Of a DNA stretch of 64,000 nucleotides, positions 34,405 through 57,159 are shown piece after piece. This DNA is from Shouchella clausii (GTDB taxonomy: Bacteria; Bacillota; Bacilli; Bacillales; Bacillaceae_D), in contig NZ_CP019985.1 in assembly GCF_002250115.1 (NCBI RefSeq), positions 1,860,001-1,924,000 on the forward strand. Direction: 5' to 3'. The first letter of the stretch is position 1. Every line of letters starts with the position of its first letter. The notes under the pieces were generated by a model that made no database searches, was not told the origin of the DNA, and saw only the letters and a program-made list of their open reading frames with translations. Position numbers and translations under genes: made by a program.

Positions 34405-34418
34405 GGGAGGAATGGGAT

Positions 34419-36936: not shown

Positions 36937-36939
36937 TTG

Positions 36940-38277: not shown

Positions 38278-38294
38278 AAGCTAGTGTGAAAGCA

Positions 38295-38330
38295 GAAAGG
38301 CAATTGCTGTTGCCTTTCTTGCTTTATTTT
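38295..38330 (+). terminator. Rho-independent terminator after the first monooxygenase operon
   Basis: GAAAGGCAA and TTGCCTTTC form a perfect 9-bp stem with a 6-base loop, followed by TTGCTTTATTTT. Confidence 0.85.
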
Positions 38331-38504
38331 AGAGAATAGGGGAACACAGTCAGTGAAAATATTGCGGCAAAGGAACGAATTCACAATCACTTATCTTTGG
38401 CTTGATTTGATCTCGTTAACAGATTGCTTACGAATTTGATAAAAAAACAATGGAACCAATAAAGAAAGTCGTGGGCTGATACGTTTTTTCTATCATTGCA
38501 GTTA

Positions 38505-38533
38505 TTGACGCGCCCTTCTTTGCAAAGTAACAT
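38505..38533 (+). promoter_or_regulatory. Candidate promoter of the second monooxygenase operon
   Basis: TTGACG, a 17-base spacer and TAACAT lie about 90 bases before the ATG at 38620. The remainder of 38331-38619 has no ORF and no obvious riboswitch fold; in particular I see no S-box or T-box pattern. Confidence 0.45.
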
Positions 38534-38619
38534 GAATAACAAGTTAATATTACAAAACACATCGTTTTAGTTGGTTTTTGGTGTTCTCATGTTTACATTA
38601 AAGATAGGAGTGCAAGCTT

Positions 38620-39957: not shown

Positions 39958-39978
39958 AAGGGAAGGAGCGTGTTAGAG

Positions 39979-40986: not shown

Positions 40987-40997
40987 GGAGAATAGCG

Positions 40998-41828
40998 ATG
41001 AAAAAACGTTTTTTAATACAAGGGGTTTTGGTCTGGCTCTACTTAATCGCTGGGTGCAGCTCGGCAGGAAGTGGGGAGGAACGTCCAGGGAACCAAGGCG
41101 TACTTGACGAAGAGAGACAAGATCATGTCATTCGGGTAGGGACGAGTGGGAAAACGATTCCTTCTACCTTCTATGATGAAAAGAATGAATTGGCTGGCTA
41201 CGATATTGACGTAATTAATGAGATTGCTGAACGAGCTGGATTTGAGGTCGAATACACTGTTGCCGATTTTAGTGGCTTATTTGGCTTGATTGAAAGTAAT
41301 CGAATTGACACGATTGCCAATCAGGCGGAGGTCACTGAAGAGCGGGAACAAAAATTTAATTTCACAGAACCATATGTGTATTCGGCTTGGCAGCTTGTTG
41401 TCCGTGAAGACGATGATTCAATTCAATCCTTAAACGACTTGGATGGGAAAATAATAGCTCAAGGTCTTGGAACGGCAAAAGAACAATACTTGGAAGAATT
41501 TCAGGCAGAGCATGGTCAAAACTTTACGCTTGAATCGTACGAAGATAGTGACGGCATTTTTTTAGATATCGTGAACGGACGCATTGATGCAAGCTTAGTC
41601 GATTATCCGAGTGGGCTTTTTAAAATTGAAAAATCGGGCTTGGACTTAAAGTACGCTGGAGAACCTTTTGCGCCAACGGTTTTTGCTTTTCCATTTAAAG
41701 AAGAGAATGATGACTTGCGTCAGCTTTTTGATGAAAAGTTGGCGGAGATGAAAGCTGACGGAACACTAAAGGAGTTGTCAGAAAAGTGGTTTGAACTTGA
41801 TATAACCGAACCGCTGGTCATCAAGTGA
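40998..41828 (+). CDS. Polar amino acid/cystine-type ABC binding lipoprotein
   Basis: A 276-residue lipoprotein (lipobox IAGC, then a Ser/Gly linker). The type-2 binding fold starts IRVGTSGKTIPSTFYDEKN, followed by ELAGYDIDVINEIAERAG, the amino-acid binding signature shared with TcyA, YtmJ/K and YxeM. The ATG follows AAGGAG. It is followed directly by its permease and ATPase. Ligand candidates are cystine or S-substituted cysteines, from operon context. Confidence 0.88.
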   Translation: MKKRFLIQGVLVWLYLIAGCSSAGSGEERPGNQGVLDEERQDHVIRVGTSGKTIPSTFYDEKNELAGYDIDVINEIAERAGFEVEYTVADFSGLFGLIESNRIDTIANQAEVTEEREQKFNFTEPYVYSAWQLVVREDDDSIQSLNDLDGKIIAQGLGTAKEQYLEEFQAEHGQNFTLESYEDSDGIFLDIVNGRIDASLVDYPSGLFKIEKSGLDLKYAGEPFAPTVFAFPFKEENDDLRQLFDEKLAEMKADGTLKELSEKWFELDITEPLVIK

Positions 41829-41852
41829 GGTGAATAGAAAGGAGCGCCGAGT

Positions 41853-42536
41853 GTGAACTTCGATTTTACGTACATGTTAGAAATGTTTCCGATCTTATTG
41901 CCATACGTGCCAATGGTGTTAGGCATGTCCGTTATTGCAACGGGTTTAGCGATTATTCTTGGATTAATTCTCGGGGTTATTACAAAAAACAGAGTTCCGA
42001 TTTTGTATCACATATCGCTTGTATTCATTTCCTATTTTCGTGGTACCCCATCGCTTGTACAAATTTTCATTTTTTATTTTGGGTTGCCTCAACTCTTCCC
42101 CCAATTGTTATTTATTAATGGCTTTACGGCTGTGATTATTGCTTTAAGTTTGCGAAATGCGGCTTATTTATCCGAAGTGTTTCGTTCAAGCCTAACGGCG
42201 GTAGAAAAAGGACAGTTAGAAGCTGCTCTATCTGTTGGCATGAGCAAAGGGCAGGCACTAAAACGAATTGTGCTTCCACAAGCCATTCGAACAGCGGTAC
42301 CACCAACTGGTAATTTTTTTATTATGATCATTAAAGAGACTTCCTTGGCTTTTACAATTGGTGTGACAGATATGTTTGCCCAGGCAAAATTATCTGCCGC
42401 GTCGAGTTACAATTTTTTTGAAAGCTATGTGGCCGTCGCCCTTATTTATTGGGCTTTAACCGCTCTTTTTTCCTTTTTGCAATCACTCTATGAGCGGAGA
42501 ATCGATAAGCCATATGAGCGGGGGGTGTCTATTTAA
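41853..42536 (+). CDS. Polar amino acid ABC permease (TcyB/YtmL/YxeN type)
   Basis: A 227-residue His/Glu/Gln-class permease with five hydrophobic segments. The N-terminal [20 protein letters not shown] and [16 protein letters not shown] blocks and the docking loop [20 protein letters not shown] are typical. The GTG at 41853 follows AAAGGAG. Its stop overlaps the ATPase ATG by one base. The B. subtilis ytm operon has two such permeases; here there is one, presumably a homodimer. Confidence 0.9.
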
Positions 42537-43321
42537 TGTTGGAAGTGGTGAACGTGAGTAAGTCTTTTCAAGGGATGGAAGTGCTTAAAAATATTGATTT
42601 TAAGGTAGAGCAAGGAGAGGTCGTAGCGATTATAGGCCCTTCAGGTGCTGGAAAATCAACATTGTTGCGTTGTCTTAATTTTCTGGAACGTCCTGACAAG
42701 GGGACGATTGAAATAGGCGGACAAAAGGTGAACGCTGAGAAACCATCTAAAAAGGATATTTTTCGTTTACGCCAACAAAGTACAATGGTTTTTCAACAAT
42801 ACCATTTATTTAAAAACAAAACCGCGCTTGAAAATGTAAGCGAGGCGTTAATTGTCACTAAGAAAATGAACAAACGAGAAGCAGAAGTGATTGGAAAAGA
42901 GCTGTTAGACGAGGTCGGTCTTTCTTCAAAATACAATCATTATCCGGTGGCATTGTCGGGAGGACAACAACAACGAGTAGGCATTGCCCGTGCTCTAGCC
43001 CTCAATCCGAGTGTGATTCTCTTTGATGAACCTACATCTTCCCTAGATCCAGAGTTAGTAGGGGAGGTTTTGCAAGTGATCCGCCAATTGGTTTTCAACA
43101 AAAATCAAACGATGCTTATTGTCACCCATGAAATGAATTTTGCTCGTGATGTCGCGGATCGGGTTATTTTTATGGCTGATGGGGTGATTGTGGAGGAAGG
43201 AACAGCCGAGGAACTATTCACAAACCCTGAACAGGACCGAACACAACGTTTTTTGCAACAGTTTACGCTCCAACAAGGGAAAAAAGGTGGGAGAGAGAAT
43301 GAGCCAGTTTCGTTTGGCTAA
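42536..43321 (+). CDS. Polar amino acid ABC ATPase (TcyC/YtmN/YxeO type)
   Basis: A 261-residue ATPase. It has Walker [11 protein letters not shown]-loop [13 protein letters not shown], signature [15 protein letters not shown], Walker [15 protein letters not shown] and switch [15 protein letters not shown]. Its 3' end overlaps the start of the acetyltransferase gene by 23 bases, a tight coupling of import to modification. Confidence 0.93.
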
Positions 43322-43868
43322 TGAAGCAGATGCAGAGCAATTGCTTCATTTGACTCGGCGTGCTTATCAACCGATTCGAGAGTTAGGCATTCATTTTTCA
43401 ACAGCGCACGCCGACCTTGATTATGTAAAAAAGAACATCAACGAGAATTTATGCTACGTCTTTGTAGGAGGAGAAGGAGTCATTCAAGCATCAGTGTCTG
43501 TGCGCTTGCCTTGGAGCAGCAATCCCGGTCCACTTGGCCTACCCCATATTTGGTGGTTTGCAGTCGACCCGATAAACGGAAGGAACGGCATCGGTAGCTC
43601 GTTATTGTCATGGTGCGAGAGAGAAGTGGTGCATACCCAGTTAAAAAGCCCGGCGGTTTCATTGGGAACTTCAAACGCTCATCCGTGGTTAGTCGATTAT
43701 TACAAACAAAGAGGCTATCACGTGGTAGAGGGATTGCAAAATGGAAAACGTCCGGATGCTGTTTTTATGAAAAAAAAGTTTAGCTATAAGGAAGAGGCTC
43801 TAGAAATTAAAGTGAGGCGCCCTATACAAGAATGGAAAATCATTGACGGGCATTCCTTAGTGGAATGA
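43299..43868 (+). CDS. GNAT-family N-acetyltransferase (YtmI/YxeL-like by context)
   Basis: A 189-residue acetyltransferase. The acetyl-CoA region is [20 protein letters not shown] (motif A, with the R/Q-x-x-G-x-G/A type turn NGRNGIG), and [18 protein letters not shown] is motif B. ATG 43299 follows GGTGGGAGAG. In the ytm and yxe systems such enzymes N-acetylate S-alkyl or S-succinyl cysteine before oxidation. That role is inferred here; the sequence alone does not give the substrate. Confidence 0.8.
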
Positions 43869-43912
43869 TGTAGTGCATGTATAAAAAACAGTTTCTAAAG
43901 GAGGAACAAAGC

Positions 43913-44224
43913 ATGTCAAATAACGTTTCCATTATCGTGTGGTCCAAACAAGGATGCCATTATTGCCAAGAGGTAAAGGACTATTTAGAGGGGCAGCAAC
44001 TCGCTTACCAAACGATTGATGTGACAAATCAGGATGATCGAAGGGATATTTTAGAAGCAAAATATGGTATTCGCCATGTACCAGTCGTTGAGATAGGAAA
44101 AAATGAGGTTTACAAGGGCATTACGCAAATCGGGTTGTCCCACTTGGAGGAGGCACTTGCTCCTTCCTTTTTGGCGAACGAAACGGTGAAGGAGCTCGTG
44201 GGAAAGAAGATGACAAAGGAGTGA
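43913..44224 (+). CDS. Glutaredoxin-like protein (YtnI-like)
   Basis: A 103-residue thioredoxin-fold protein. The redox motif is CHYC in WSKQGCHYCQEVKDYL; the cis-proline is in HVPVVEIG. ATG 43913 follows AAAGGAGG; an in-frame ATG at 43877 lies upstream of that site. A YtnI-type glutaredoxin sits next to YtnJ in B. subtilis, so its presence supports the assignment of this operon. It may reduce a mixed disulfide or an oxidised intermediate of the pathway. Confidence 0.87.
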   Translation: MSNNVSIIVWSKQGCHYCQEVKDYLEGQQLAYQTIDVTNQDDRRDILEAKYGIRHVPVVEIGKNEVYKGITQIGLSHLEEALAPSFLANETVKELVGKKMTKE

Positions 44225-44229
44225 CGCAA

Positions 44230-44841
44230 ATGCCTCAACCAATCACCATTCGTGCATTTACAGTCGCTGATAAGGACGAAGTGCAACAGCTTTTAATCGA
44301 GAGCTACAGCCAGTATGAAGCCGTATTTAGAAGCCCGGAAGCGTGGTCAGAGTATGTCATGACAATGAGAGCATCTGTTGATAATCCAAACGTCGAGCGC
44401 ATATTGGTTGCTACAAAGGGGCCCAACATTGTCGGGACGGTGCAACTATTTGAATCAGGAGATAAAGCGTATCAACGGCCAGGACTTGTAATCAACCACC
44501 CGGTTATTCGTTTGCTTGCTGTTCACCCAAACGCAAGGGGGCAAGGTGTAGCGCAACGACTTATTAAAGAAAGTTTGAAAATCGCCACGGCAAAAGGGGC
44601 AGATTATCTTTATTTGCATTCCGGTGACATCATGAGTCAGGCAATCAAATTGTACGAGTGGCTAGGCTTTAAACGAGACGAATCGAAGGAATTTTTGAAT
44701 GGCGAGTCCCTTGTAAAGTGTTTTCGTTTTGACTTAAAGAAGGAGTGTGGACGATTTGACGAAACAGGAGCTGGAAAAACGATTAATCGAGATTCGCAGG
44801 CATTTGCACCAGCATCCAGAGCTGTCAAAAGAGGAGTTTGA
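44230..44841 (+). CDS. Second GNAT-family N-acetyltransferase
   Basis: A 203-residue acetyltransferase with the acetyl-CoA motif VIRLLAVHPNARGQGVAQRL and the C-terminal block SQAIKLYEWLGFKRD. ATG 44230 follows AAAGGAG with eight bases of spacing; GTG 44221 is less well placed. The recognisable domain ends near FRFDLKKE, but the frame continues 30 more residues and overlaps the next gene by 86 bases. The tail has no family character. Confidence 0.82.
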   Translation: MPQPITIRAFTVADKDEVQQLLIESYSQYEAVFRSPEAWSEYVMTMRASVDNPNVERILVATKGPNIVGTVQLFESGDKAYQRPGLVINHPVIRLLAVHPNARGQGVAQRLIKESLKIATAKGADYLYLHSGDIMSQAIKLYEWLGFKRDESKEFLNGESLVKCFRFDLKKECGRFDETGAGKTINRDSQAFAPASRAVKRGV

Positions 44842-45916
44842 AACAACGAAGTCGATCACGGGCTGGCTGCTTGAAAAGGACATTGAGATCCGGCAAACCT
44901 CATTGCCAACTGGGGTTTTTGCGGAGATCAAAGGCGGAAAGCCTGGCCCGACGATTGCCATTCGCGCTGATATTGATGCGTTACCCATTCAAGAGCAGAC
45001 TGGTCTGCCGTTTGCTTCATTAGCGGAAGGCAAAATGCATGCGTGCGGCCATGATTTTCATACAGCTGCTTTAATCGGTGCCGCTTATTTGTTGAAGGAA
45101 GAGGAAGAACAGTTGACAGGAACAGTTCGGTTCTTGTTTCAACCAGCAGAAGAATCAGGCGCAGGAGCAGAAAAGGTGATAAACGATGGCCAGTTAGAAG
45201 GTGTGGACGCTATCATAGGCTTGCATAATAAGCCAGATTTGCCTGTGGGCACTGTTGGTTTAAAAGACGGGCCATTAATGGCAGCAGTTGATCGTTTTAA
45301 AGTGGTGGTAAAGGGCGTCGGTGGGCATGCGGGTCTGCCACAAAAAGGCCATGACCCGATCGCAGCAGCTGCTCAACTGGTCACAGCGCTACAGACAATT
45401 GTCAGCCGTGATACGTCACCATTAGAGAATGCTGTTGTTAGTGTTACAAAAATCACAGGAGGAAATAGCTGGAATATCATCCCAGAGGATGTTACGTTAG
45501 AAGGCACGGTGCGTACGTTTGATTCAGCTGTGAGGCAGCATGTGAAGGAGCGTTTCTATCAGATTTCAGAGTATATTAGCCAAGCCTTTCAAGTTGAGTC
45601 AGCTGTTAAGTGGTATGCGGGGCCACCTCCATTAGTCAACGATCCAGTGATTACTGATATAACGAGAGCGGCTGCACGATCACTTCGGCTGACGGTGGTG
45701 AATCCAGAACGTTCCACAGCTGGAGAAGATTTTTCGTATTTTTTGCACCAAATCCCAGGCTCGTTTGCTTTTTTTGGGACGAATGGCGCCGAAGATTGGC
45801 ATCACCCGTCCTTTACAGTAGATGAAACAGCACTCATAAAAGCAGCATATTACCTATTTAACAGTGGCAAAGAATTGCTTAAACATGTCCAAGTTCGTGA
45901 GGGTGTGTTGGGCTAG
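44756..45916 (+). CDS. M20D-family amidohydrolase (YtnL/YxeP-like N-acyl amino acid deacylase)
   Basis: A 386-residue zinc amidohydrolase. Metal-site blocks are MHACGHDFHTAALIGAAY and LFQPAEESGAGAEKVI; GVGGHAGLPQKGHDPIAAA is the lid domain; TAGEDFSYFLHQIPG near the C-terminus carries the last ligand region. TTG 44756 is preferred because AAGGAG lies ten bases upstream, while GTG 44747 sits almost on it. In cysteine salvage the homologous enzyme removes the acetyl group to release cysteine. It differs clearly from the AbgB-type pair at 13.6-16.1 kb. Confidence 0.88.
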   Translation: MTKQELEKRLIEIRRHLHQHPELSKEEFETTKSITGWLLEKDIEIRQTSLPTGVFAEIKGGKPGPTIAIRADIDALPIQEQTGLPFASLAEGKMHACGHDFHTAALIGAAYLLKEEEEQLTGTVRFLFQPAEESGAGAEKVINDGQLEGVDAIIGLHNKPDLPVGTVGLKDGPLMAAVDRFKVVVKGVGGHAGLPQKGHDPIAAAAQLVTALQTIVSRDTSPLENAVVSVTKITGGNSWNIIPEDVTLEGTVRTFDSAVRQHVKERFYQISEYISQAFQVESAVKWYAGPPPLVNDPVITDITRAAARSLRLTVVNPERSTAGEDFSYFLHQIPGSFAFFGTNGAEDWHHPSFTVDETALIKAAYYLFNSGKELLKHVQVREGVLG

Positions 45917-45971
45917 GTAAATTAGGAGAAAGGCCGAACGAACAATTAGAAGGAAGGATCGGTGAGGATCG

Positions 45972-46517
45972 ATGCCAAACGTTGCGATTATCTATGGGGG
46001 CAATAGCCATCAATCACGATTAAAAGGATTGTATCAAAAAACGGAATCCTATTTTAAAAAGGAAGGATTTAGCACAGAGGCGATTTTTGTTCATGAGTTG
46101 CCTGCCGAGGATTTGCTTTCAGCCAATTATGCAAGCGAAGCGATCGCACAAGCAAATGCAAAGGTTGCGAATGCTTCAGTTGTGGTTGTACTAACCCCAG
46201 TGTATAAAGCAGCCTATTCTGGTATATTGAAATCATACTTAGATTTGCTTCCGCAAAAGGGGCTTGAAGGAAAAGCAGTTCTTCCGCTTGTGCTTGGAGG
46301 GTCATTTGGACATTTGCTCGCCATCGACTATGCTTTAAAGCCAGTCCTTTCTTCCTTAGGAGCAACAACGATTTTAAGTGGCGCTTACGTACTTGATACT
46401 CATATCGAAAAACTAGGGAACGAGCAATTCTTTATTACAGCAGAGATTGACGAGCGTGTTGATCGAGTGTTGAAGCTGGCAAAGGAAGAATCGACCCGGG
46501 CGCTACGTGCGTATTAA
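45972..46517 (+). CDS. NAD(P)H-dependent FMN reductase (SsuE-like)
   Basis: A 181-residue flavodoxin-fold reductase. It starts NVAIIYGGNSHQSRLKGLY (flavin phosphate loop), and TPVYKAAYSGILKSYLDLLP is the hallmark of SsuE/NADPH-dependent FMN reductases. It provides reduced FMN to two-component monooxygenases, of which five lie within 14 kb. ATG follows GAAGGA. It closes the second module, ahead of a convergent gene. Confidence 0.88.
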   Translation: MPNVAIIYGGNSHQSRLKGLYQKTESYFKKEGFSTEAIFVHELPAEDLLSANYASEAIAQANAKVANASVVVVLTPVYKAAYSGILKSYLDLLPQKGLEGKAVLPLVLGGSFGHLLAIDYALKPVLSSLGATTILSGAYVLDTHIEKLGNEQFFITAEIDERVDRVLKLAKEESTRALRAY

Positions 46518-46818
46518 AATGATTGAAACACCGACTCTCGACTTGGAAGGAAGCTACTTCGCCCTTGGATAGGGTTGTATTGTAGACAAAAATGGAGTGA
46601 GTAAAAAGTGATTCACTTCTATTGCCTGAAACGAATAGAGCGCTCTCTTTGCCTACAGTGTGAAGAGGGTGCTTTTCTGAATAAAGGTTTCATCATTGGA
46701 GTGAATGGAAAGCAACATAAAATGAGGAATCATATTAATTTGTACGGGGTTGAAAAAATAGGAGAACCTAAAGATGATTATGTAAGTGACAAGGGGGGCG
46801 ATAAAGCCCCTCCTTATA
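46518..46818. terminator. Convergent intergenic region with a probable bidirectional terminator
   Basis: AAGGGGGGC and GCCCCTCCTT form a hairpin at 46791-46816, three bases from the stop of the minus-strand monooxygenase; T-runs are weak. An 83-codon plus-strand frame at 46608-46856 has no ribosome binding site, no family and crosses the hairpin, so I leave it out. Confidence 0.4.
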
Positions 46819-48144
46819 CTATTGTGTTTTACGAGCAGCATACCTGCTTTGTTTAAACGGTAGACCGAGATTGTCGCGTAACGTGGTGCCAGGATATTCG
46901 GTTTGGGCAATGCCGCGCTCCTGCAAGATTGGTAGTACCTTTTTAATGAAAAGATCCAAGCCATCATTGAGCAGCGGTGAACCAAAAATAATGCCATCAC
47001 AGGCCCCGGAGAGAAACCATCTTTCGATCTCATTGGCGACATGGAGGGGCGTGCCAGAAAAGCTACTCCGTGGTGTTGTTGCTTCAAGCGCGACTTCGCG
47101 CAATGTCTTTCCATGTATTCGTGCGTCTCTCTTAATTTGGTCTGTCGTTGAGCGGAAATTCTCAGACCCAATGTCGCCAATATCTGGGAATGGCTCATCC
47201 AATGGAAACTGGCTAAAATCATAGTGGTCGAAGTAACGACCTAAATAATGAAGCGCTGCTTCAATGGAGCTCCCATTTCGTAAGGCGGCATATTTTTCCT
47301 CGACTTCTTCTTCCGTGTTGCCGATAATCGGACCAATGCCGGGTAAAATTAAAAGATCCTCTGGCTTGCGGCCATACGAAACAGCTCTGTTTTTAACATC
47401 TTGATTTAAAGCTTGTGCGTCTTCGACCGTTTGATGATTTGTAAAGACCGCATCTGCTGTCTTGGCAGCAAGCTCTCTTCCTGCGTTTGAAGAACCGGCT
47501 TGAAAGACAACAGGTTGTCCTTGCTTGGAGCGTTGGATGTTTAAGGGTCCTTCTACTTGAAAATGCTTCCCGACATGGTTTAAGGTGTGCATTTTCTCTG
47601 GATCAAAGTACGTGCCGCTTTCCCGATCAAATAAAAATGCATCGTCCTCCCATGAATCCCACAATCCTTTAACGACTTCAAGGTGCTCCTCAGCAATCTC
47701 GTATCGCAATGAATGATTTGGAAAAGAGCCCCTGCTATGGTTACGGGCAGCGCCGGAAGAAGGCGAGGTAACGACATTCCATCCAGCACGCCCGCCGCTA
47801 ATCAAGTCAAGGGAGCCAAATTGTCTAGCGACTGTGAATGGTTCCGAGTAAGAACTTGACAGGGTTCCGACCAAACCGATATGGGAAGTGGTAGCTGCTA
47901 AGGCAGAAAGAATCGTAAGTGGCTCAAAGCGATTCAGAAAGTGGGGCAAGACATCTTTGTTAATTGATAAGCCGTCTGCGACAAAAGCAAAATCGAATTT
48001 TGCCTGTTCGGCTTTTTGGACAAGTTGCTGGTAATGGCTTATGTTCACACTGGCGTCTGCAGGACCGGATTCATGTTTCCATGAAGCCATATTTCCTCCA
48101 GCTCCGTGAAGCATGAAGCCGATGACAAGGTGGCGTTTTGACAA
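46819..48144 (-). CDS. LLM-class flavin monooxygenase, NtaA/SnaA/DszA (YtnJ-like) type, third copy
   Basis: A 441-residue paralogue of the enzymes at 36940 and 38620. It has blocks ASWKHESGPADASVNISHY, SGGRAGWNVVTSPSSGAARN, GLWDSWEDDAFLFD and VVFQAGSSNAGRELAAK. TTG 48144 is chosen because GGAGGAG lies six bases upstream. It is the last gene of a minus-strand operon with an Opp/Gsi-type peptide importer, giving a third importer-plus-monooxygenase module, converging on the second. Confidence 0.87.
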   Translation of the reverse strand: MSKRHLVIGFMLHGAGGNMASWKHESGPADASVNISHYQQLVQKAEQAKFDFAFVADGLSINKDVLPHFLNRFEPLTILSALAATTSHIGLVGTLSSSYSEPFTVARQFGSLDLISGGRAGWNVVTSPSSGAARNHSRGSFPNHSLRYEIAEEHLEVVKGLWDSWEDDAFLFDRESGTYFDPEKMHTLNHVGKHFQVEGPLNIQRSKQGQPVVFQAGSSNAGRELAAKTADAVFTNHQTVEDAQALNQDVKNRAVSYGRKPEDLLILPGIGPIIGNTEEEVEEKYAALRNGSSIEAALHYLGRYFDHYDFSQFPLDEPFPDIGDIGSENFRSTTDQIKRDARIHGKTLREVALEATTPRSSFSGTPLHVANEIERWFLSGACDGIIFGSPLLNDGLDLFIKKVLPILQERGIAQTEYPGTTLRDNLGLPFKQSRYAARKTQ

Positions 48145-48177
48145 TTCAATCTCCTCCAATACAGTAGTATCTTCTTC

Positions 48178-50190
48178 TTAGAGAGGGTAATGGCAAGCAA
48201 CAAAATGGTCTTCTCCAAGTGGTAGGAGAGATGGGTGTTCGGTTCGACATTTGCGATCAGCATAAGGACAACGTGTGTGAAACCGGCAGCCAGCCGGTGG
48301 GTTAATTGGTGAAGGGATTTCTCCATCAATCGCTGCATGAACCCGTTTTTGTGTTGGCTCAAGTTTTGGGTTTGATGCGATAAGCGCCTTCGTGTACGGG
48401 TGGGCAGGCGCATTAAAGATTTCTTCGCTTGGACCGATTTCAACCATTTCTCCTAAGTACATGACGCCAATTCGATCTGAAATGTAACGAACGACATTGA
48501 GCCCGTGCGCGATAAAGAGATACGTTAATCCATATTGTTTTTGCAAGTCGCGTAACAAGTTTACAATTTGGGCTTGGACGGAAACGTCAAGCGCAGACAC
48601 AGCCTCATCTGCAAGGATAAAGGACGGTTCTAACGCGATGGCTCGGGCAATGCCAATTCGCTGGCGCTGACCGCCTGAAAATTCATGGGGGTGGCGAGCT
48701 GCGCAGGCAGGGTCAAGGCCAACAGCAGAGAGTAAGTGTTCCACGCGTTGTTGTCGTTGTTTCTTAGATAATTTTTGGTGGGTTCGGAGCGGTTCGGAAA
48801 TAATGTCAGCTATCGTCCAGCGTGGATCAAGTGAACCGTATGGATCTTGGGAAATCATCTGCATATTTTGGCGAACGGCCCGTAGCTTGGCTGATTTAAA
48901 TTTTGTTAAATCTTCATTTTGGAACATTACCTCTCCCTCTGTTGCATTTTCCAATTGCAAGAGCATTCGCCCTAAAGTCGACTTTCCGCTTCCTGATTCT
49001 CCAACTAAACCAAAGGTTTCTCCTTTTCGAATCGAAAAGCTGATGTTATCTACAGCACGAATTCGTTTAGATGATTGAAAGAACATCGGTCCATTCACAC
49101 GATAATGTTTACTGACATTCTTCAATTGGAAAAGCAGTTCGTTTTTGTTGATGGAGGCGTTTGCCACTTGAGTAGAAACTTCTGGAATCACCTCCAACGG
49201 GGATGACTTTTGCTCAGTAAGAAGGACTTCCGTATGCCAGCAAGCAACCTCACGTCCCTTTTTTTGCTCAAGTGGTGGGACCTCCGTGCGGCAACGATTG
49301 GTCGCATGAGGACACCTTGGATGGAAGAGACACCCAGATGGCAAGTTTGACAAACTAGGAATCGCTCCGGCAATCGAATAAAGCCTGGTGCGCTCGTTTT
49401 GCTCCATCGTTGCGACGGATTGAAGCAAGCCTTGTGTATAGGGGTGCATAGGTGTTGCGAATAAGTCCACAGTGGTAGCTTGCTCCACCACTTTTCCTGC
49501 GTACATAACGACAATGCGATCAGCAATTTCAGCAGCAATGCCTAAGTCGTGAGTGATGAGAAGAATCGACATATTGAATTCTTGTTTTAGCTGTTGCAAC
49601 AATAACAAGATTTGAGCCTGGATGGTCACATCCAGAGCAGTCGTTGGTTCGTCGACGATTAAAAGTTCGGGCTCACAGGAGAGTGCCATCGCAATCATCG
49701 TGCGCTGTAGCATGCCTCCAGACATTTCGCCAGGATATTGTTTCATCCTCAAGGCCGGTTCTGGAATTCCAACTTTTTCAAGCAAACGAATCCCTTGTTC
49801 CCATGCTTTCTGTTTGCTCATACGCTTATGTCTAAGAATCGTTTCGGCAATCTGAAAGCCAATTGTATAAACAGGATCAAAGGCAGACATCGGTTCTTGA
49901 AAGACCATCGCTATCTTATTGCCACGCAGGTCTCGCAGTTCTTTAGGGGTTAATTCGGCGATGTTTTGGTTGTTAAAATAAATGTGTCCACCTGTAATGA
50001 TGCCTTGCTCGTAATCAATTAAGCGCATGATCGCTTTTGAGGTAACCGTTTTGCCACTGCCCGATTCTCCAACAAGGCATACCGTTTCTCCTTTATTAAT
50101 GGAAAGGGAGACATCGTTTAAAACAGGCAAGCGACGGTTTTTATTCTCAAACGCAACGTCAAGGTGCTGGATGTCTAATAGACTAGGCAT
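48178..50190 (-). CDS. Fused OppD-OppF ABC ATPase (GsiA-like)
   Basis: A 670-residue protein with two complete ATPase domains. The first has GESGSGKT, MSGGMLQRTMIAMAL and [11 protein letters not shown], and ends with the [14 protein letters not shown] segment. A linker of about 25 residues leads to the second, with [24 protein letters not shown] and ILADEAVSALD, ending CRFHTRCPYADRKC. The second switch reads FIAHGLNVV. In this operon one gene does the work of the oppD and oppF pair used at 8773-10802. The glutathione importer ATPase GsiA has the same layout, compatible with a thiol-peptide substrate. Confidence 0.9.
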   Translation of the reverse strand: MPSLLDIQHLDVAFENKNRRLPVLNDVSLSINKGETVCLVGESGSGKTVTSKAIMRLIDYEQGIITGGHIYFNNQNIAELTPKELRDLRGNKIAMVFQEPMSAFDPVYTIGFQIAETILRHKRMSKQKAWEQGIRLLEKVGIPEPALRMKQYPGEMSGGMLQRTMIAMALSCEPELLIVDEPTTALDVTIQAQILLLLQQLKQEFNMSILLITHDLGIAAEIADRIVVMYAGKVVEQATTVDLFATPMHPYTQGLLQSVATMEQNERTRLYSIAGAIPSLSNLPSGCLFHPRCPHATNRCRTEVPPLEQKKGREVACWHTEVLLTEQKSSPLEVIPEVSTQVANASINKNELLFQLKNVSKHYRVNGPMFFQSSKRIRAVDNISFSIRKGETFGLVGESGSGKSTLGRMLLQLENATEGEVMFQNEDLTKFKSAKLRAVRQNMQMISQDPYGSLDPRWTIADIISEPLRTHQKLSKKQRQQRVEHLLSAVGLDPACAARHPHEFSGGQRQRIGIARAIALEPSFILADEAVSALDVSVQAQIVNLLRDLQKQYGLTYLFIAHGLNVVRYISDRIGVMYLGEMVEIGPSEEIFNAPAHPYTKALIASNPKLEPTQKRVHAAIDGEIPSPINPPAGCRFHTRCPYADRKCRTEHPSLLPLGEDHFVACHYPL

Positions 50191-50200
50191 AACCGACCTC

Positions 50201-51094
50201 CTACACTCGTTGTTTTTTCGGATCTAAGTAGTCTCTAAGCCAGTCACCAATTATATTTATTGAAAGAACAAATGCTGTAATCGCAAGGCCCGGAAATGTA
50301 CAAATCCACCAGGCGACGGTAAGGAACCCCCTTCCCTGTGAGAGTAGAGCCCCCCAGTCAGGAACTTCATTGAGCACACCTAATCCTAGAAAGCTCAAGC
50401 CCGAACCTGCAAGAATCGCTGTTCCCATTCCCAATGTGGCCATCACAATCATTGGGGAGGCGGCATTGGGAAGAACGTGAGAGAAGAAAATCTTGCTTTG
50501 CGAGACGCCAATTGATTGGGAGGCTGTAATGAAAGGCCGTCCTTTAATGCTCATGACTTGCCCACGCATGACTCTTGCGTAACCTGGGATCGAAGCAACC
50601 GCAATGGCGAAAACAACATTAAACAGGCTTGGTCCAAGGGATGCAGCTATCGCTAAAGCAAGCAAAATGCCAGGGATTGTCATAAGAATTTCGATCATGC
50701 GCATAAGGAGACGATCTACTCTTCCGCCTATATATCCGGAAAATGCTCCGATCATTCCCCCAGCGATACCGCCAACTGCGACGGATAGACCTCCAATGAA
50801 CAGAGAGTCACGGCTTCCATGGACAACGAGGCTAAAGACATCACGGCCGAATTGATCTGTGCCAAAAAGATGGGCTATACTGGGCGCTTGAAGGATGGCT
50901 TCATGAACCATCTGCGTTGGCGGGTAAGGGGCAACCCACTGGGGAGCTAATGCGCAGACGACAATGAAACAAATAACAACCCCAGCTGCACAGGCAAAGA
51001 TGTCGGCTGAGCCAAAGGCACGCTGTTTGGTTTGAGGTGCGAGAACGTTTTTTTGCGTCTTTAATACATTTTTATTTATGGTGGTTTCCCTCAC
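50201..51094 (-). CDS. Peptide ABC permease (DppC/GsiD type)
   Basis: A 297-residue permease with six hydrophobic segments after a basic cytosolic arm. It shows LFGTDQFGRDVFSLVVHGSR and the docking loop PFITASQSIGVSQSKIFFSH. It ends GDWLRDYLDPKK, as OppC proteins usually do. It lies between the fused ATPase and the partner permease, with short gaps. Confidence 0.9.
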   Translation of the reverse strand: MRETTINKNVLKTQKNVLAPQTKQRAFGSADIFACAAGVVICFIVVCALAPQWVAPYPPTQMVHEAILQAPSIAHLFGTDQFGRDVFSLVVHGSRDSLFIGGLSVAVGGIAGGMIGAFSGYIGGRVDRLLMRMIEILMTIPGILLALAIAASLGPSLFNVVFAIAVASIPGYARVMRGQVMSIKGRPFITASQSIGVSQSKIFFSHVLPNAASPMIVMATLGMGTAILAGSGLSFLGLGVLNEVPDWGALLSQGRGFLTVAWWICTFPGLAITAFVLSINIIGDWLRDYLDPKKQRV

Positions 51095-51112
51095 CTTGGT
51101 ACCTCCTTTTGA

Positions 51113-52048
51113 TTAGTCATGTAAAATGGAGCGTCTCACACGTGGATCAATGGCTGAATAAGACAGATCAACAATGAGATTAATCAAGATATACAAAATC
51201 GCGGTAAAAAAAATCACCCCTTGGACAACAGGCAAATCACTAGCCATAATTGCATCCGCAATCAAGCGACCTATCCCTTGCCTAGAAAAAACGGTTTCGA
51301 TAATCACCGTGCCAGCTAACATATCACCAATCATCATCCCCATCATCGTTAATGCTGGAATTAAAGCATTTTTTAATGCATGTCGGTACATAATCGCTCG
51401 TTCAGTTAATCCTTTGGCACGTAGAGTTGTAATGAAATTCTCGCTGATCACCTCAAGCATGCTGTTACGTACCATTCGAATGATAAAGCCCGCTCCGATA
51501 ATGCCAAGTGTAAAGCTTGGAAGAATCAATGTTTGCCATCCATCCGATCCAAGGGAAGGGAGCCAACCAAGTGCGACGGAAAAAATGAGAATAAGCAGAA
51601 TGCCGGTCCAAAAGGTAGGCATGGAGATTCCGAATAGCCCGATCATTCTTGCCAATACATCAATCGTCTTATTTCGGTGCACTGCCGAGAGGACACCAAG
51701 CGTGATACCAACTATAATTGAAATGCAAGAGCTAACTATTGTTAAAGCGAGCGTCTTAGGGAATTGCTCGATTATTTGCGGCAGCACGGGTGTGGAGTTT
51801 ACCAATGATTGGCCAAAGTCGCCCCGAAACAGATCAGAGAAGTAATGAATGAGCCGGACATGGTAGGGTTGATCGATGCCAAGCTCTTTGCGCAAATTCT
51901 CTACCATTTCAGGCGTCGCAACGGAAGGGTCAATGATCGAGTCCACAGGGTCTCCCGGCAAGACATATAGTGTTGTAAATACTAGAATCGTTGAACCAAA
52001 GATAACAAACAAAGATGTAACAAGCCGTTCGGCTATGATTCGTGCCAT
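51113..52048 (-). CDS. Peptide ABC permease (DppB/GsiC type)
   Basis: A 311-residue permease. The N-terminal helix IIAERLVTSLFVIFGSTILV and PGDPVDSIIDPSVATPE block match DppB, and the docking loop is NFITTLRAKGLTERAIMYRH. ATG 52048 follows GGAAGGAGG, so the longer frame starting at 52087 is rejected. It is 19 bases downstream of the binding-protein gene. Confidence 0.9.
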   Translation of the reverse strand: MARIIAERLVTSLFVIFGSTILVFTTLYVLPGDPVDSIIDPSVATPEMVENLRKELGIDQPYHVRLIHYFSDLFRGDFGQSLVNSTPVLPQIIEQFPKTLALTIVSSCISIIVGITLGVLSAVHRNKTIDVLARMIGLFGISMPTFWTGILLILIFSVALGWLPSLGSDGWQTLILPSFTLGIIGAGFIIRMVRNSMLEVISENFITTLRAKGLTERAIMYRHALKNALIPALTMMGMMIGDMLAGTVIIETVFSRQGIGRLIADAIMASDLPVVQGVIFFTAILYILINLIVDLSYSAIDPRVRRSILHD

Positions 52049-52067
52049 CTTGGCGCCTCCTTCCGTG

Positions 52068-53690
52068 CTAGCGAACATAGGTGTCATTAAAGAATGGATA
52101 GCCTAAATAGTCAAAGGTGATTCCTTGAACGGATTCCTGGGTGCCAACTGTGTAAGGGAAAACATAAATGGGAATGATGATCGCCTGTTGATGAATGTAT
52201 TGCTGAATCTCTTTATAAATTGCAATCCGTTTTTCCTCATCCAATTCAATGGTGCCTTGCTCCAGCAACTCGTCTAACTTTGGGTCGTTTAACCTTGAAA
52301 GGGTCTTTCTCGCTCCTTCGTCTGGAGTACGGTAAAACTGGCGCAGGGCGTTTGGATCGCCATTCACTTGGCTGTTTCCATATAAATCATAGTCGCCATT
52401 TTCATGGATGGTTGTGCTAATATCCTTTGTCAATTCGATGATAACGTCAATGCCAATTTCTTTCAGTTGCTGCTGGACGATAACGGCAATATCATTTCGC
52501 TTTTCGCGGTTTGGGGTACTATCAACATAGTTTAAGGTTAAGCGTTCCCCATCACGCTCGCGAATGCCGTCTGTGCCTTTTTTCCAACCGATGTCTTCAA
52601 GAAGCTGTTCCGCTTTCTCCTTGTCCGGTTCAAAAGAATGCTCAAGTGACTCATCATACCCGAGAAGACCTGGGGTGATGGAGGACCAAGCTCGGTCATA
52701 GGTTCCAAAATATAAGGTGTCAACAATCTGTTGGACATCAATGCCGTATTGCAATGCTTGACGAGCTTCAAGCTCTCCCCACGGTTCATGCTCCGAGTTA
52801 ATAAAAAGCGTGTAAGGAAGTCCTTCTGTATTCTGGCTCAATAGTTTAAGCGACGGGTCACTTTCAAATGCCTCAATGTTTTGCGGAGGGATGGTTTCAG
52901 CTGCAAGAACTTGGCTGCTTTGTAAGCTGCCAACTCTTGTCGCTTCCTCTGTAATGATTTTAAACGTCAATGTATCAAGAAAAGCAGGTCCTTTGTTTTC
53001 TGATTGGGCTGAGCCCCAGTTGTAATCGTCATAGCGTTTAAGTTGAATCTCTGAATTTTCTTGCCAACTGACAAATTCAAAGGGACCGGTGCCGACTGGA
53101 TTTTGCCCAAACTGGCTGCCATGTTCTTCAGCAGCAGTCGGAGAAACAATTGACAGTTGCGTTTGCGTTAAATTTGTTAAAAAAGAAGCAGACGGTGTCG
53201 CTAAATGCAGCTTAATTGTGTGCGCGTCAATCACTTCCGCTGATTCATATGGGTGAAGTGCACTAAGGGCATTGCCCGCCTGGGTTGCTGGATCAAGGAT
53301 TCGGTCAAAGCTGTATTGGACAGCCTCGGCATCAAAAGGGGTACCGTCATGAAAAGTGACATCATCGCGAAGATGAAAAGTATATGTTTTTCCATCATCA
53401 GATATGTCCCAATCGGTTGCTAGTTGTGGTGCGATGGAGCCATCAGGAAGCCGTGTTAACAAGCCTTCGAAAATTTGGTTGTAAACTCGCGACTCAACAG
53501 CCCAGCCACTTCGACCAGGGTCGAGTGTAGAAGGGTTCGTTGCGAGCGCATACGTAAGGTCTCCAGCTTTCTCCTCTGTTGGCGTTCTATCTGGTGAAGC
53601 GCTTGATCCAGATGAACTGGAGCATCCAGAGATGATAATGGCTAAAGCTAAAATGCAGGAGTGAAAGGCTGAAGATTTAACGAATTTCAT
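52068..53690 (-). CDS. Peptide-type ABC substrate-binding lipoprotein (SBP_bac_5)
   Basis: A 540-residue lipoprotein. A signal segment ends in the lipobox ISGC, followed by a serine-rich linker. Family blocks include YNQIFEGLLTRLPDGSIAP, TDWDISDDGKTYTFHLRDDV and HDGTPFDAEAVQYSFDRILD. ATG 53690 follows AAGGAGG. It is the first gene of the minus-strand importer operon and diverges from a LysR regulator. With the monooxygenase at the operon's end, a sulfur-bearing peptide such as a glutathione conjugate is a plausible ligand, by inference. Confidence 0.9.
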   Translation of the reverse strand: MKFVKSSAFHSCILALAIIISGCSSSSGSSASPDRTPTEEKAGDLTYALATNPSTLDPGRSGWAVESRVYNQIFEGLLTRLPDGSIAPQLATDWDISDDGKTYTFHLRDDVTFHDGTPFDAEAVQYSFDRILDPATQAGNALSALHPYESAEVIDAHTIKLHLATPSASFLTNLTQTQLSIVSPTAAEEHGSQFGQNPVGTGPFEFVSWQENSEIQLKRYDDYNWGSAQSENKGPAFLDTLTFKIITEEATRVGSLQSSQVLAAETIPPQNIEAFESDPSLKLLSQNTEGLPYTLFINSEHEPWGELEARQALQYGIDVQQIVDTLYFGTYDRAWSSITPGLLGYDESLEHSFEPDKEKAEQLLEDIGWKKGTDGIRERDGERLTLNYVDSTPNREKRNDIAVIVQQQLKEIGIDVIIELTKDISTTIHENGDYDLYGNSQVNGDPNALRQFYRTPDEGARKTLSRLNDPKLDELLEQGTIELDEEKRIAIYKEIQQYIHQQAIIIPIYVFPYTVGTQESVQGITFDYLGYPFFNDTYVR

Positions 53691-53950
53691 GCAACGTCCT
53701 CCTTGTATAGTCAATGTTTTAGTTAAAGCTTCATTTAGCATTAATCGGGTAGGAATAATATGTTTTTGTTCATCCTACGCCTATCGATTTCAAATAGCAA
53801 TAGCTAAACCAATAGAAGAATTTAGGAATATATTGAAAAGTTTTATCAATTTAATAAACAGTCTAAGAAAAATACTTAATTGCATATCTTTTTAGTTGGG
53901 TATATGATGGAAGCAAATATAGTTGAGTTGTAAACGAAGGGGGAATGCTG
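53691..53950. promoter_or_regulatory. Divergent LysR/importer control region with palindrome
   Basis: ATTGA-N9-TCAAT at 53832-53850 is an interrupted palindrome resembling a LysR box and the site at 32456-32478. The surrounding DNA is AT-rich with several possible -10 elements on both strands. This is the expected place for autoregulation and for control of the peptide importer operon. Confidence 0.4.
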
Positions 53951-54865
53951 ATGAATATGGACTATTTAGAAGCGTTTATGTATGTCGTGAAATTCAAAAG
54001 CTTCCATAAAGCTGCTGAGGCGCTTTATTTAACACAGCCATCGATAACAGCACGAATAAAAGGGTTAGAACGGGAGCTAGAGACGCAGTTATTCATTAGG
54101 CAAGGTCGAGGGATTACATTAACGGAAAAAGGCAAAGACTTTATTCCGTTTGCTGAACAAATGATTCGTACGTACCAGCAAAGCAAAGAGAAGCTGAGGA
54201 GTGGATCAAAGAAAAAAAAATTTACGTTTGGCGCGAACATGATTACTGCCCAATATGTCATGCCTGAGTTTATTTGGTTCTTTTCACAACAGCTCCCTAC
54301 GCTTGAATACGACGTTGTGTGTGGTGGAAATGAATATATTTTGGAACGTGTGAGCCGGAAAGAAATTGACGTAGCTTTTGTACGACAGTTAGATAATTAT
54401 TCAGAGGAAATACTTAGTCATTCATTTTTGGATAACTCGATTCATTTAGTCGTTCATCCAAGCCACCCTTTTGCTACAACTCAAATGCCATCAGCCCACC
54501 AAATTGCCCAGGAGCCGCTTGTCTTTTTTGAGTGTGGGGCTTTTAATTGGAACTTAGTTCACAAGCTTTTTGAAGCGCATAACGCTAAAGCGAGGATTCG
54601 TCATAAAGTCGGCAACATGGAGATCGCAAAGTCGTTGATTCTTCACCAGTCAGGCATTGGATTTCTTCCAAAATTGGCAGTGAAAAAAGAACTTGAAACC
54701 GGAGCATTGCGTTCAATCGATGTGAGCCACTTGATGAACTTCAATCAACAGATTGAACGAATTCATTCATCGACTATTAACCTTCCTAAGGAAATCGAGA
54801 AATCCATTGATGAGGCCGCATACCAATTTGAATATGCTGTGCCGCAGTTGAAGGTCAAATCGTAG
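53951..54865 (+). CDS. LysR-family transcriptional regulator of the organosulfur island
   Basis: A 304-residue regulator. The helix-turn-helix shows FHKAAEALYLTQPSITARIK and GLERELETQLFIRQGRG; the effector domain begins near KKKFTFGANMITAQYVMPEF. ATG 53951 has GGGGG eight bases upstream; 53945 and 53957 are alternatives. It diverges from the Opp/Gsi-type operon. B. subtilis controls its ytm operon with the LysR protein YtlI, so this gene may regulate one or more modules of the island. That link is inferred from position only. Confidence 0.87.
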   Translation: MNMDYLEAFMYVVKFKSFHKAAEALYLTQPSITARIKGLERELETQLFIRQGRGITLTEKGKDFIPFAEQMIRTYQQSKEKLRSGSKKKKFTFGANMITAQYVMPEFIWFFSQQLPTLEYDVVCGGNEYILERVSRKEIDVAFVRQLDNYSEEILSHSFLDNSIHLVVHPSHPFATTQMPSAHQIAQEPLVFFECGAFNWNLVHKLFEAHNAKARIRHKVGNMEIAKSLILHQSGIGFLPKLAVKKELETGALRSIDVSHLMNFNQQIERIHSSTINLPKEIEKSIDEAAYQFEYAVPQLKVKS

Positions 54866-55362
54866 GCTTTGTACGCTGTCAGATGTGTAAATAAGATGCT
54901 GTCTTTGCGCACTCGCTTATTTTAACGAGGTAGGTTGATAGAGACAATGGATAAAAGGGTGCTTGAGAGCTGGACTTCCTAAAAGGCGGTTTAGTATGAC
55001 AGGAGATTAGGAATCGCTCGTTTATCATCGTATTCATGCAAATAGAAACGAGAGAGGGATTTTGCACCATCCCAGCCGGAATGACATGAAACCGAGTTTT
55101 GTAAACTGTAAATAAAGAAGAAGAACTCCACGTATGAACTGCCCCTCTCAATTTAAAGCTTTTATCTACGGCATGACTCTTTTGGAGTTATGCCATTTTT
55201 AAACTTCATTATGGAAAGAGATGTCGGCAGCAAGACCACCCTTTCGTTTTTCGAATGAACGGTCGGGTTTTAACCCCCCAAAAAAAGCTCTATCGGACCT
55301 TTGTCGACACACCTTCCCACACGTAACTTACATTGAACAAATTTATGTTAGCTTAAAAGAAA
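54866..55362. other. Intergenic region with one terminator
   Basis: No supported gene. A terminator-like hairpin is present at 55170-55201: GGCATGACTC/GAGTTATGCC with a 5-base loop, followed by ATTTTT on the plus strand. A minus-strand 90-codon frame at 54879-55151 has no ribosome binding site or family. Confidence 0.45.
55170..55201 (+). terminator. Rho-independent terminator
   Basis: The 10-base arms pair with one or two G-T pairs around TTTTG and are followed by ATTTTTAAA. It is 300 bases downstream of the LysR gene, so its partner gene is uncertain and may be a lost gene. Confidence 0.55.
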
Positions 55363-55582
55363 AAGATCGTGAAGTATATTGAAATCCATGGTTCAAGCAT
55401 CTTGGCAGAGTTATTACACACACCACCACTCACGAACTTCATCATAGAGGACAATGGTGAAAATGGGAAGGTAACTCGGATATATCCCATCGAAAATAGA
55501 TCGAAAAGAGTATGCCGTTGTGCGCTCTGGGCGAGATGAAGCGTCAGGTTATTTCTTTGTAGTTACTAAGTTATTTGATTGA
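55363..55582 (+). pseudogene. Frameshifted remnant of an unrecognised small gene
   Basis: One plus frame reads KIVKYIEIHGSSILAELLH, then LTNFIIEDNGENGKVTRIYP, to a stop at 55537-55539. The next frame, overlapping it, reads KEYAVVRSGRDEASGYFFVV to a stop at 55580-55582. The two halves look like one protein broken by a frameshift near 55500. I do not recognise the family. Confidence 0.4.
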
Positions 55583-55862
55583 GAGGCTTATGAAGGGGCT
55601 TACCAAAATTCGATGAAAAGCAGCGGCACGTGGCTGTTGATGTAAAAGCATTTGAGTGTCTTCCGCCTTGTCCTGCAAGGCTATCTTCTAAATTTACGGA
55701 GCGGAGACATTGTTCAAATAGGCTGTATCTGTTTATCCATGTTCGCATCGACTTTTTGAGGAGAAAGAGAAAAGTTCAGATGTAACACACACTAACTTTT
55801 AAAACAATCAAATAAGAAAAAGAGAGCCAGCAATTGACTCTCGATAGTTTTTAATAAAAACA

Positions 55863-55982
55863 TTATGTGAGATGGGAAGACTCTGTCGGTAAGAATGTAA
55901 TATCCACTTTTTCACCGTTTGGGCTAACTCCTAAAGTAAGTGCAACTACTAGAAGCGATAGAAAAACAATCCGTTTAAACAA
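55863..55982 (-). CDS. phr: Phr-type signalling peptide precursor
   Basis: A 39-codon minus-strand gene, too short for usual gene calls. TTG 55982 has AGGAG nine bases upstream. The product starts MFKRIVFLSLLVVALTLGVS, a short basic end plus hydrophobic export segment, followed by a hydrophilic tail ending TFLPTESSHLT. This is the size and plan of Phr precursors, in which a secreted C-terminal penta- or hexapeptide, often ending in Thr, Gly or Ile, is re-imported by Opp to inhibit its Rap partner; SSHLT would fit. It overlaps the rap stop codon by eight bases, as rap-phr pairs do. The adjacent rap is degraded, so this phr is orphaned. Confidence 0.72.
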   Translation of the reverse strand: MFKRIVFLSLLVVALTLGVSPNGEKVDITFLPTESSHLT

Positions 55983-56121
55983 ATTGATCAACTCCTAAAG
56001 TGTTTTGGTACAAACGCGCATCATGCGCAACTTTCATATAATTCAACGCCAGCTTGGTTTTTCCTTCCTTTTCTAGATCTGTAATGGCTTGATCGATCAA
56101 ATCAAAGTTGTTTTCAATAGA
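55975..56121 (-). pseudogene. Rap C-terminal remnant with internal deletion, overlapping phr
   Basis: It translates to SIENNFDLIDQAITDLEKEG, then KTKLALNYMKVAHDARLYQN and ends GVDQFV. Against the remnant at 32228-32430 it lacks the MDFEVGELAEEAA-type stretch between two EKEG segments, as if the near-identical GAAAA(A/G)GAAGGAA runs recombined. All upstream TPR sequence is missing; the DNA joins directly to the end of the DUF418-type gene. Confidence 0.75.
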
Positions 56122-56158
56122 GTGAGCCCCCATCCTGCGGCCATGCCTAGTTGGTTTC

Positions 56159-57159
56159 CTAGATAAGTATTTGTTTTGAGAACAGCACAATTAACATGAT
56201 TTCGTTGTAGATAAAAAACGTAAGCGATCGTTTTCCGAGGGACGTGATCGCCCATACAATACCGCTTGGGTTTGTTATTTTCGGTCCAATTAAGCCAAAG
56301 ATAGCGGCGTAAGCAACACCCCCTAAAATGCCTGTAAGCCATATGCAAGGAGAAAGTTAAGCCGACTAAGGCTGGCGGCAATTCGATCAGTTGGTTGCTG
56401 TATAAGGCATGTGGAACAGCGCCGATTAAGGAAATGGAGAGGCCGTAAACAGCCGCTTTTTTCAGGAATGGTTTGTTCTTTGGGCTTTCATTTAACAAGC
56501 CTTTTTGCCCGAAGTAGATACCTATAAGGATTGATACTCCAACAGGCAGCAGAAAATGAGCGATGAATGGTCCGCCTGTGGCAAATTGGATAAACTGGCT
56601 TGTGACTCGTTCGAAGTAATATGCGTAATTGCCTGGAAGGATCGCGTTTCCATTAAATTGTGCATAGGCCATCCCTATCCATGTGAGCGGCAAAATAACG
56701 ACATAAGCAAGGGATACGGCCATGATGCTTCGAAGTACGGTTTTGTCGCTTCGGAACAGTAGCCAACAACACGCGAGAAGGGCCGTCCCATAGATGGCGA
56801 GAATGTCTTTTCCACCGATTAGAACGGAGAGGATGAAGCCGAATAGAATGCGGAACCAAGCTCTTCGGTAAAGAGATGTTTTTGCATCTTTTATCGGTTT
56901 GTTTCGTTTTAAATAACTGCGCACAATCAAAGTCAGACCGTAGCCGAACAACAACGCAAACATCGCTCTTGCCCGGTTATCAACCAAAAAGACAGAAAGA
57001 TAATTGACGATGGTATCGTACATACTCATACTTTCGGGACGGGTTAACAAGGAGCTGCCCAAAAACAACGATGCATGGGCGAGGGCGACAAGACATAAAA
57101 CCTCTAGCGAGATCAAGTGAAACAAAGCGTTTTTGTCCTAGCTGAGCGATAGGATTCAT
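56159..57159 (-). pseudogene. DUF418/YeiB-type membrane protein, two frameshifts
   Basis: A multi-pass membrane protein. ATG 57159 (after AAAAAGGAGAG) opens MNPIAQLGQKRFVSLDLARG; the coding frame then changes near 57105, where membrane-like sequence continues LCLVALAHASLFLGSSLL. The long central frame is normal for the family (NRARAMFALLFGYGLTLIVR is its hallmark). It shifts again near 56350: GILGGVAYAAIFGLIGPKI and SLTFFIYNEIMLIVLFSKQ are read in another frame to a stop at 56159-56161. Two frameshifts argue for a true pseudogene rather than base-call error. Confidence 0.75.

Follow-up and report, generated by a model that had tools for sequence, protein, structure and literature searches.

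The 64,000 nucleotides of Shouchella clausii DNA analyzed here (the window) contain a small phr gene that follows the 3' end of a destroyed rap gene. The phr frame translates as MFKRIVFLSLLVVALTLGVSPNGEKVDITFLPTESSHLT. The initial annotation had described a short frame with AGGAG and a TTG start that overlaps the rap stop by 8 bases, and the locus is as described (overlap at 55975-55982, stop included). A 42-codon version starting three codons upstream was rejected; 55982 is the better start because the TTG at 55991 abuts AGGAG. The predicted export segment is a hydrophobic stretch after a basic start, and its best 11-residue Kyte-Doolittle mean is 3.19 in the G011 and G010 orthologues. Pfam and NCBIfam gave no matches for the 42- and 71-residue frames of phr and the rap remnant, so both assignments rest on synteny and comparison. 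The features of the locus are listed in Table 1.

Table 1. Features of the orphan phr locus and related rap sequences in the window (window coordinates)
Feature	Coordinates	Strand	Remark
Intact phr-less Rap, candidate listener of the initial annotation	25793..26890	-	poor pocket match
Second fragment of the same rap, decayed, without phr	32236..32438	-	
Block of about 23.4 kb between the two rap fragments	32439..55862	.	missing at this locus in G006, G010 and G011
Orphan phr gene, 39 codons, TTG start, TAA stop	55863..55982	-	same frame at same locus in G006, G010 and G011
C-terminal tail FLPTESSHLT, predicted to be removed	55866..55895	-	
Proposed mature hexapeptide EKVDIT, codons 24-29	55896..55913	-	comparison and covariation
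N-terminal export segment (predicted), codons 1-20, MFKRIVFLSLLVVALTLGVS	55923..55982	-	read from sequence; hydropathy of orthologues
rap remnant, 3' end with stop, internal 60-bp deletion near 56074/56075	55975..56119	-	
Shine-Dalgarno AGGAG, TTG at 55982 is 9 bases downstream	55992..55996	-	
Sigma-H-type promoter (predicted), GAAGGAAAA-N11-GTTGAATTA, in rap remnant	56039..56067	-	consensus match
Frame-broken DUF418 gene, C-terminal end lost at rap junction	56120..57159	-	

The window genome (G000) was compared with 12 other genomes of the genus. The phr frame was found at the same locus in three of them (G006, G010, and G011) with 95-97% identity, which indicates that it is more than a chance reading frame. 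In G010 and G011, an intact Rap of 364 residues, here called RapX, precedes phr with the same 8-base overlap. The initial annotation had pointed to an intact rap-phr pair in related genomes as the thing to look for, and to a lack of conservation of the frame beside intact rap homologues as evidence against it; the pair is present in both genomes and the frame is conserved. Its view that a genuine Phr-type precursor gene persists behind a destroyed rap therefore holds. Judged from these comparisons, we consider 55863-55982 to be a true phr gene whose own receptor has been lost, and its orphan state to be real.

In G000, approximately 145 bp of the rap 3' end are left, joined to the frame-broken DUF418 gene. 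The RapH_N three-helix domain and the TPR repeats in open frame are absent from this remnant and only the last rap residues are left, whereas the 364-residue frame is open in G010 and G011. In G006, rap is truncated at another breakpoint, phr is kept, and the DUF418 gene is whole. Either rap was lost twice (in G000 and in G006) or a first truncation was later enlarged in G000, so that the losses could be nested. A 2-kb probe from the block between the two rap fragments matched one of the 13 genomes, G000 only. Nine of its proteins were scanned, and the block encodes luciferase-like monooxygenases, an NlpA lipoprotein, an M20 peptidase, an oligopeptide-type ABC transporter, and a LysR regulator. 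The two direct copies of a rap segment around this apparently foreign block look like the result of integration via recombination in rap. An oligopeptide/dipeptide ABC transporter set lies inside the inserted block at 48178-53741 of the window, about 2 kb from the orphan phr, and an IS3-type transposase (rve, HTH_21) lies at 30532-31410, near the left rap fragment.

The rap genes of the genus were collected to determine which residues of the orphan precursor form the signal. From 80 places matching approximately 300 Rap residues or more, three were absent from the locus set (G006:524206, G002:1030974, and G012:C10), leaving 77 raps. By a fixed rule, 69 of the 77 have a phr, and these are the rap-phr pairs of the genus. 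The eight raps without phr by this rule are four orthologues of the phr-less rap in the window, G001:3388694, and three others. G001:3388694 does have a phr (its tail contains a lysine), which the rule missed because the rap match ran past the stop. In RapF, the conserved Asp194 binds the basic residue at peptide position 2 (PMC3601957). Among the 69 pairs, Rap residue 194 was acidic (Glu or Asp) in 64, and the Phr tail contained a lysine in all 64, any lysine in the tail being counted. The other five pairs have Ile194, and none of their Phr tails contains a lysine. A precedent for residue 194 and the basic peptide residue changing together is RapBL3-PhrBL3 (PMC5199041). RapX carries Glu194, and the sole lysine of the orphan Phr tail falls in EKVDIT, so a basic position 2 would face an acidic Rap194 in this pair, given the peptide that we propose.

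The peptides of the nearest relatives are DKGDIT (repeated), DKVDIS, DKVEIS, DKADIS, DKAEMT, and DKGDMT, the last five of them C-terminal, and the motif [DEG]K-x-[DE]-[IM]-[ST] recurs among related Phr. EKVDIT is identical in G010 and G011, the genomes with an intact RapX, and its codons show one synonymous and zero amino-acid changes across the four genomes. The initial annotation had placed the activity in the C-terminal pentapeptide, SSHLT. The comparison favours the internal EKVDIT instead: the residue at position 2 of SSHLT is not basic, and no SSHLT-like C-terminus was found among the related Phr compared. A mature peptide at the extreme C-terminus is not a requirement of the Phr family. 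Internal, repeated peptides occur in the Phr of the paralogue at 2669511, and the tail FLPTESSHLT resembles the tail after the last repeat in that precursor (DKGDIT-FIHTAKPKA). We believe that the signal is probably the internal hexapeptide EKVDIT rather than the C-terminal SSHLT.

The covariation between Rap columns and peptide positions was analyzed in 61 of the 69 pairs. The five Ile194 pairs (no lysine) and three pairs with ambiguous repeats (G009:259065, G004:580085, and G001:3791781) were left out. The hexapeptide register was set by hand with the lysine as position 2. Rap alignment columns (338-350) were ranked by mutual information with each peptide position, after thinning for redundancy to 41, 27, and 21 representatives. 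The results are rankings against other columns of the same ancestry, and the P values are nominal because pairs on a tree share ancestry and are not independent.

The RapF residues that touch PhrF residue 1 are 226, 263, 266, 300, and 303 (PMC3601957). For position 1, the top three of 350 columns were 300, 303, and 266 with 41 representatives, and the same three, which are three of the five RapF contacts, also led with 27 and 21. The remaining contacts 226 and 263 ranked only 23-40 and 56-70. An acidic Rap266 was paired with an acidic peptide residue 1 in 0 of 11 representatives, compared with 21 of 30 otherwise (nominal P 5e-5). The residues at 266 and 303 gave a simple rule for position 1: Ser-Arg goes with E (3/3), Asn-Arg with D (16/17), and Asp-Arg with G (5/5). 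RapX has Ser266 and Arg303, and its Phr peptide starts with E. In a leave-one-out prediction, position 1 was right in 32 of 38 cases and 3 of the 41 had no like pair; the commonest letter, D, accounts for 17 of 41. With the coarser label of residue 1 being acidic or not, column 362 ranked first, and 300, 266, and 303 were at ranks 2, 8, and 16.

Column 66, which holds the peptide C-terminus in RapF (PMC3601957), was first for position 6 at all three cut-offs. Column 152, which holds the main chain at peptide residue 3 in RapF (PMC3601957), was first for position 3 in one run. No contact signal was obtained for position 4, where columns 226, 227, 252, and 263 ranked 128-302. At RapF position 227, where the RNPP family has been said to have a strictly conserved Asn, many Shouchella Raps carry Thr, Ser, or Ala and have Arg at 226, provided that the alignment is correct there. 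The signal for position 5 was weak: column 154, which is no listed contact, ranked first, and at the stricter cut-offs column 145 fell to 42 and 19, column 149 fell to 101 and 115, and column 187 rose to 6 and 5. As controls, the position-1 contacts ranked 119-291 for the residue before position 1 and 243-312 for the residue after position 6 (position 7), yet the latter picked 149 and 145, and it is therefore not a clean control for position 5. These rankings suggest a natural specificity code in which Rap266 and Rap303 largely predict peptide residue 1 and Rap66 tracks residue 6.

The pocket of RapX, Ser266-Arg303-Arg66-Gln145-Leu149, is in line with EKVDIT. The window genome encodes six intact Raps, none with Ser266. 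The listener named by the initial annotation was the phr-less Rap of the window. It has the domains of a Rap phosphatase (RapH_N, PF18801, E 2.2e-24; TPR_12, E 2.7e-10), but its pocket equals that of RapX at only 9 of 19 contact positions. It was without a recognizable phr in all four genomes (G000, G006, G010, and G011), which makes its orphan state older than the loss of rapX. It carries Gln66, and all 12 representatives with this residue have V, A, or G at peptide position 6; Arg66 pairs with S or T in 6 of 10. It also carries Glu194, which in the pairs above always goes with a lysine, and SSHLT offers none. We consider it very improbable that SSHLT acts on this Rap, even though the Rap is intact and without a phr of its own, and SSHLT is constant in the four genomes while the preceding residue varies (E or A). 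This Rap is thus not favoured as the listener.

Two paralogues elsewhere in the genome appear to fit better than the phr-less Rap. The Rap at G000:C1:2669511 is 74% identical to RapX, equals it at 16 of 19 pocket residues, and has DKGDIT as its own peptides. The Rap at 2122444 is 61% identical, equals RapX at 15 of 19, and has DKVEIS as its own peptide. Both have Arg66, Gln145, Leu149, Glu194, Tyr300, and Arg303 in common with RapX and differ from it at 266. With this likeness, EKVDIT might inhibit a surviving paralogue at home, above all one of these two. The Asn266 Rap at 1708718 pairs with a peptide that has Glu at position 1, so Asn266 may tolerate Glu there. On the other hand, RapX and the Rap at 2669511 differ at 266 (Ser and Asn), the position that tracks E or D. 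The two also coexist in G010 and G011, where insulation between them is expected, and Even-Tov et al. 2016 report that they saw no strong cross-interactions within one genome (PMC5199041). For these last two reasons, we regard such cross-wiring as unlikely. The rap at 1708718 (G000:C1:1708718-1709815, L006) is followed by two consecutive phr frames with the ends EKPGTAT and GKPDTAT, and the same is true in G006. RapX-bearing strains such as G010 and G011 could hear EKVDIT, since the hexapeptide is identical there.

Both strands of the 64-kb window were scanned for RNAGGAWWW/RNNGAATWW with a spacer of 10-13, which is the sigma-H consensus as printed in PMC8510167. The site in the rap remnant, which lies 56 bases before phr, matches perfectly and is alone in doing so in the window, where 0.275 such matches would be expected. 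Its score was 15.5, the maximum, compared with at most 14.5 in the 77 raps. A single base difference from the relatives, AAG to AAT, completes the match to RNAGGAWWW-N11-RNNGAATWW. In 20 of the 77 raps, the top-scoring sigma-H-type site is 84-90 bases from the rap stop, on its upstream side, and scores at least 13.5; in the other 57, including the phr-bearing Rap at 1925641, it lies elsewhere or scores lower. All 12 raps of the RapX group have TTG as the leucine codon in the -10 part, and the four phr-less orthologues have TTA. TTA is also found in three phr-bearing raps of the 1925641 group, and overall this codon is TTG in 23 of 59 raps, TTG being 16% of the leucine codons across the raps compared. 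A promoter farther upstream in rap, in the stretch deleted here, was rejected by eye; the best site in RapX is at -90. Sigma-H promoters drive several B. subtilis phr genes. The window genome encodes SigH, a Spo0F homologue (57% identity), and 15 SBP_bac_5 (oligopeptide-binding) proteins. The phr gene is probably still expressible, as far as its sequence tells, in a strain that lacks the cognate receptor.

Whether the peptide is of use to the strain is a separate question from whether it is encoded. A 120-bp frame would survive neutrally with a probability of 0.67-0.92 at 1-1.5% divergence and indel rates of 0.05-0.2 per substitution. The intact phr frame is weak evidence of use because of this, and its survival by chance is likely. 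On the window branch, phr has one change, which is synonymous, and this is too few to show constraint. The gene may thus be a plain relic of a recent rap loss, not yet decayed and with a peptide useless to the strain; the adjoining DUF418 gene and the other rap fragment are also broken. Several points weigh against this. Nothing is broken in the promoter sequence, ribosome binding site, start, export segment, or hexapeptide, and the promoter is nearer to the consensus than in any of the 77 raps. G006 also keeps phr behind another rap breakpoint, though the losses could be nested as mentioned. Between G000 and G006, 4 of 5 phr changes are synonymous, a borderline excess (P 0.02-0.04 by mutation model) over an interval that partly predates the rap loss. 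We give the relic reading somewhat less than an even chance; it concerns use rather than coding, and so overlaps with the explanation preferred below.

Other phr genes behind broken raps occur in the genus. Outside G008, seven rap remnants reach residue 345 or beyond of 364. Four of them precede an intact phr frame (two in G000 and two in G006), two are without phr (G000:32236 and G005:43905), and G004:3548521 has a phr-like frame with TTA where the relatives start. At G002:3543192, phr is kept though the rap 3' end is gone, and at G011:355685 it lies 366 bases after a partial rap match. G008 has four split raps, each followed by phr, and was set apart because its assembly has 290 contigs and the frameshifts may be sequencing errors. 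A general rule that phr outlives rap is not claimed, as remnants without phr also occur. At G000:C1:4125061-4125644 (L172), a second intact phr (DKIDTM...DKIDTV) lies behind another broken rap, and this phr matched nothing in the 12 other genomes of the genus.

We think it fairly probable that the phr gene is a sender left without its receptor: it would still make EKVDIT, for which the strain has lost the cognate receptor and which RapX-bearing relatives could hear. The retained 3' end of rapX keeps a sigma-H-type promoter sequence, a ribosome binding site, and the complete phr frame. Transcription of phr by sigma-H would begin as cells enter stationary phase. The precursor of 39 residues would be exported, proteases would release the internal EKVDIT, and the hexapeptide could be re-imported via an oligopeptide permease. 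At home, no intact Rap has the full set of predicted binding residues, and EKVDIT may at most touch the paralogues at 2669511 and 2122444, which differ from RapX at 266 and a few other contacts. Its natural receptor would be RapX in the relatives that still hold it. In a RapX cell, EKVDIT would block RapX and thereby free the response regulator (Spo0F or a ComA-like regulator).

The pair resembles known systems in several respects. As in RapF-PhrF, RapG-PhrG, and RapK2-PhrK2 of Bacillus, phr is directly downstream of rap, with an export segment, a short peptide with a basic position 2, and an acidic Rap194. PhrG-RapG has the same Lys/Glu pairing as that proposed for EKVDIT/RapX (PMC3601957), and for RapK2, hexapeptides are active where pentapeptides are not (PMC5199041). 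The present locus departs from the Bacillus pairs in its destroyed Rap and in the internal position of the proposed peptide, which is followed by a 10-residue tail. Multi-copy Phr precursors have been described by Even-Tov et al. 2016, whose S11 Fig contains B. clausii Raps (PMC5199041). The closest paralogue in the window genome (G000:C1:2669511-2670599, L062) is followed by such a precursor, encoding five DKGDIT and one DQGDIT (6, 4, 4, and 3 units in four genomes); the orphan Phr holds a single copy.

Loss of one half of a receptor-signal pair is likewise known from orphan rap genes in B. subtilis (RapB, RapD, and RapJ; PMC5199041) and from orphan RRNPP regulators in Clostridium, where the accessible text of the source discusses orphan regulators and not orphan signals (PMC7376267). 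The present case is the mirror image of the orphan raps: here it is the receptor that was lost and the signal gene that persists. No account of a phr without its rap was found in a search of open-licence papers, as judged from titles, the beginnings of abstracts, and selected passages.

Finding the signal of the orphan required reading the Rap-Phr specificity code. The identification of the Rap positions that are crucial for coevolution was named a key future challenge by Even-Tov et al. 2016 (PMC5199041), and covariation within one genus singles out the structural contacts 266, 300, 303, and 66. Such a code gives exact and cheap predictions of which peptide matches which Rap. A sender without a receptor also lends itself to the question of whether a strain can steer its neighbours without listening to them. 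It is rather improbable, in our view, that selection has kept phr as a receptor-free broadcast signal, with the strain ignoring RapX, still emitting EKVDIT, and having reached the full sigma-H consensus in its lineage. If this were true, EKVDIT would lift repression in RapX-bearing neighbours from the same species group, and the remaining phr genes that follow broken raps in the genus would be further cases.
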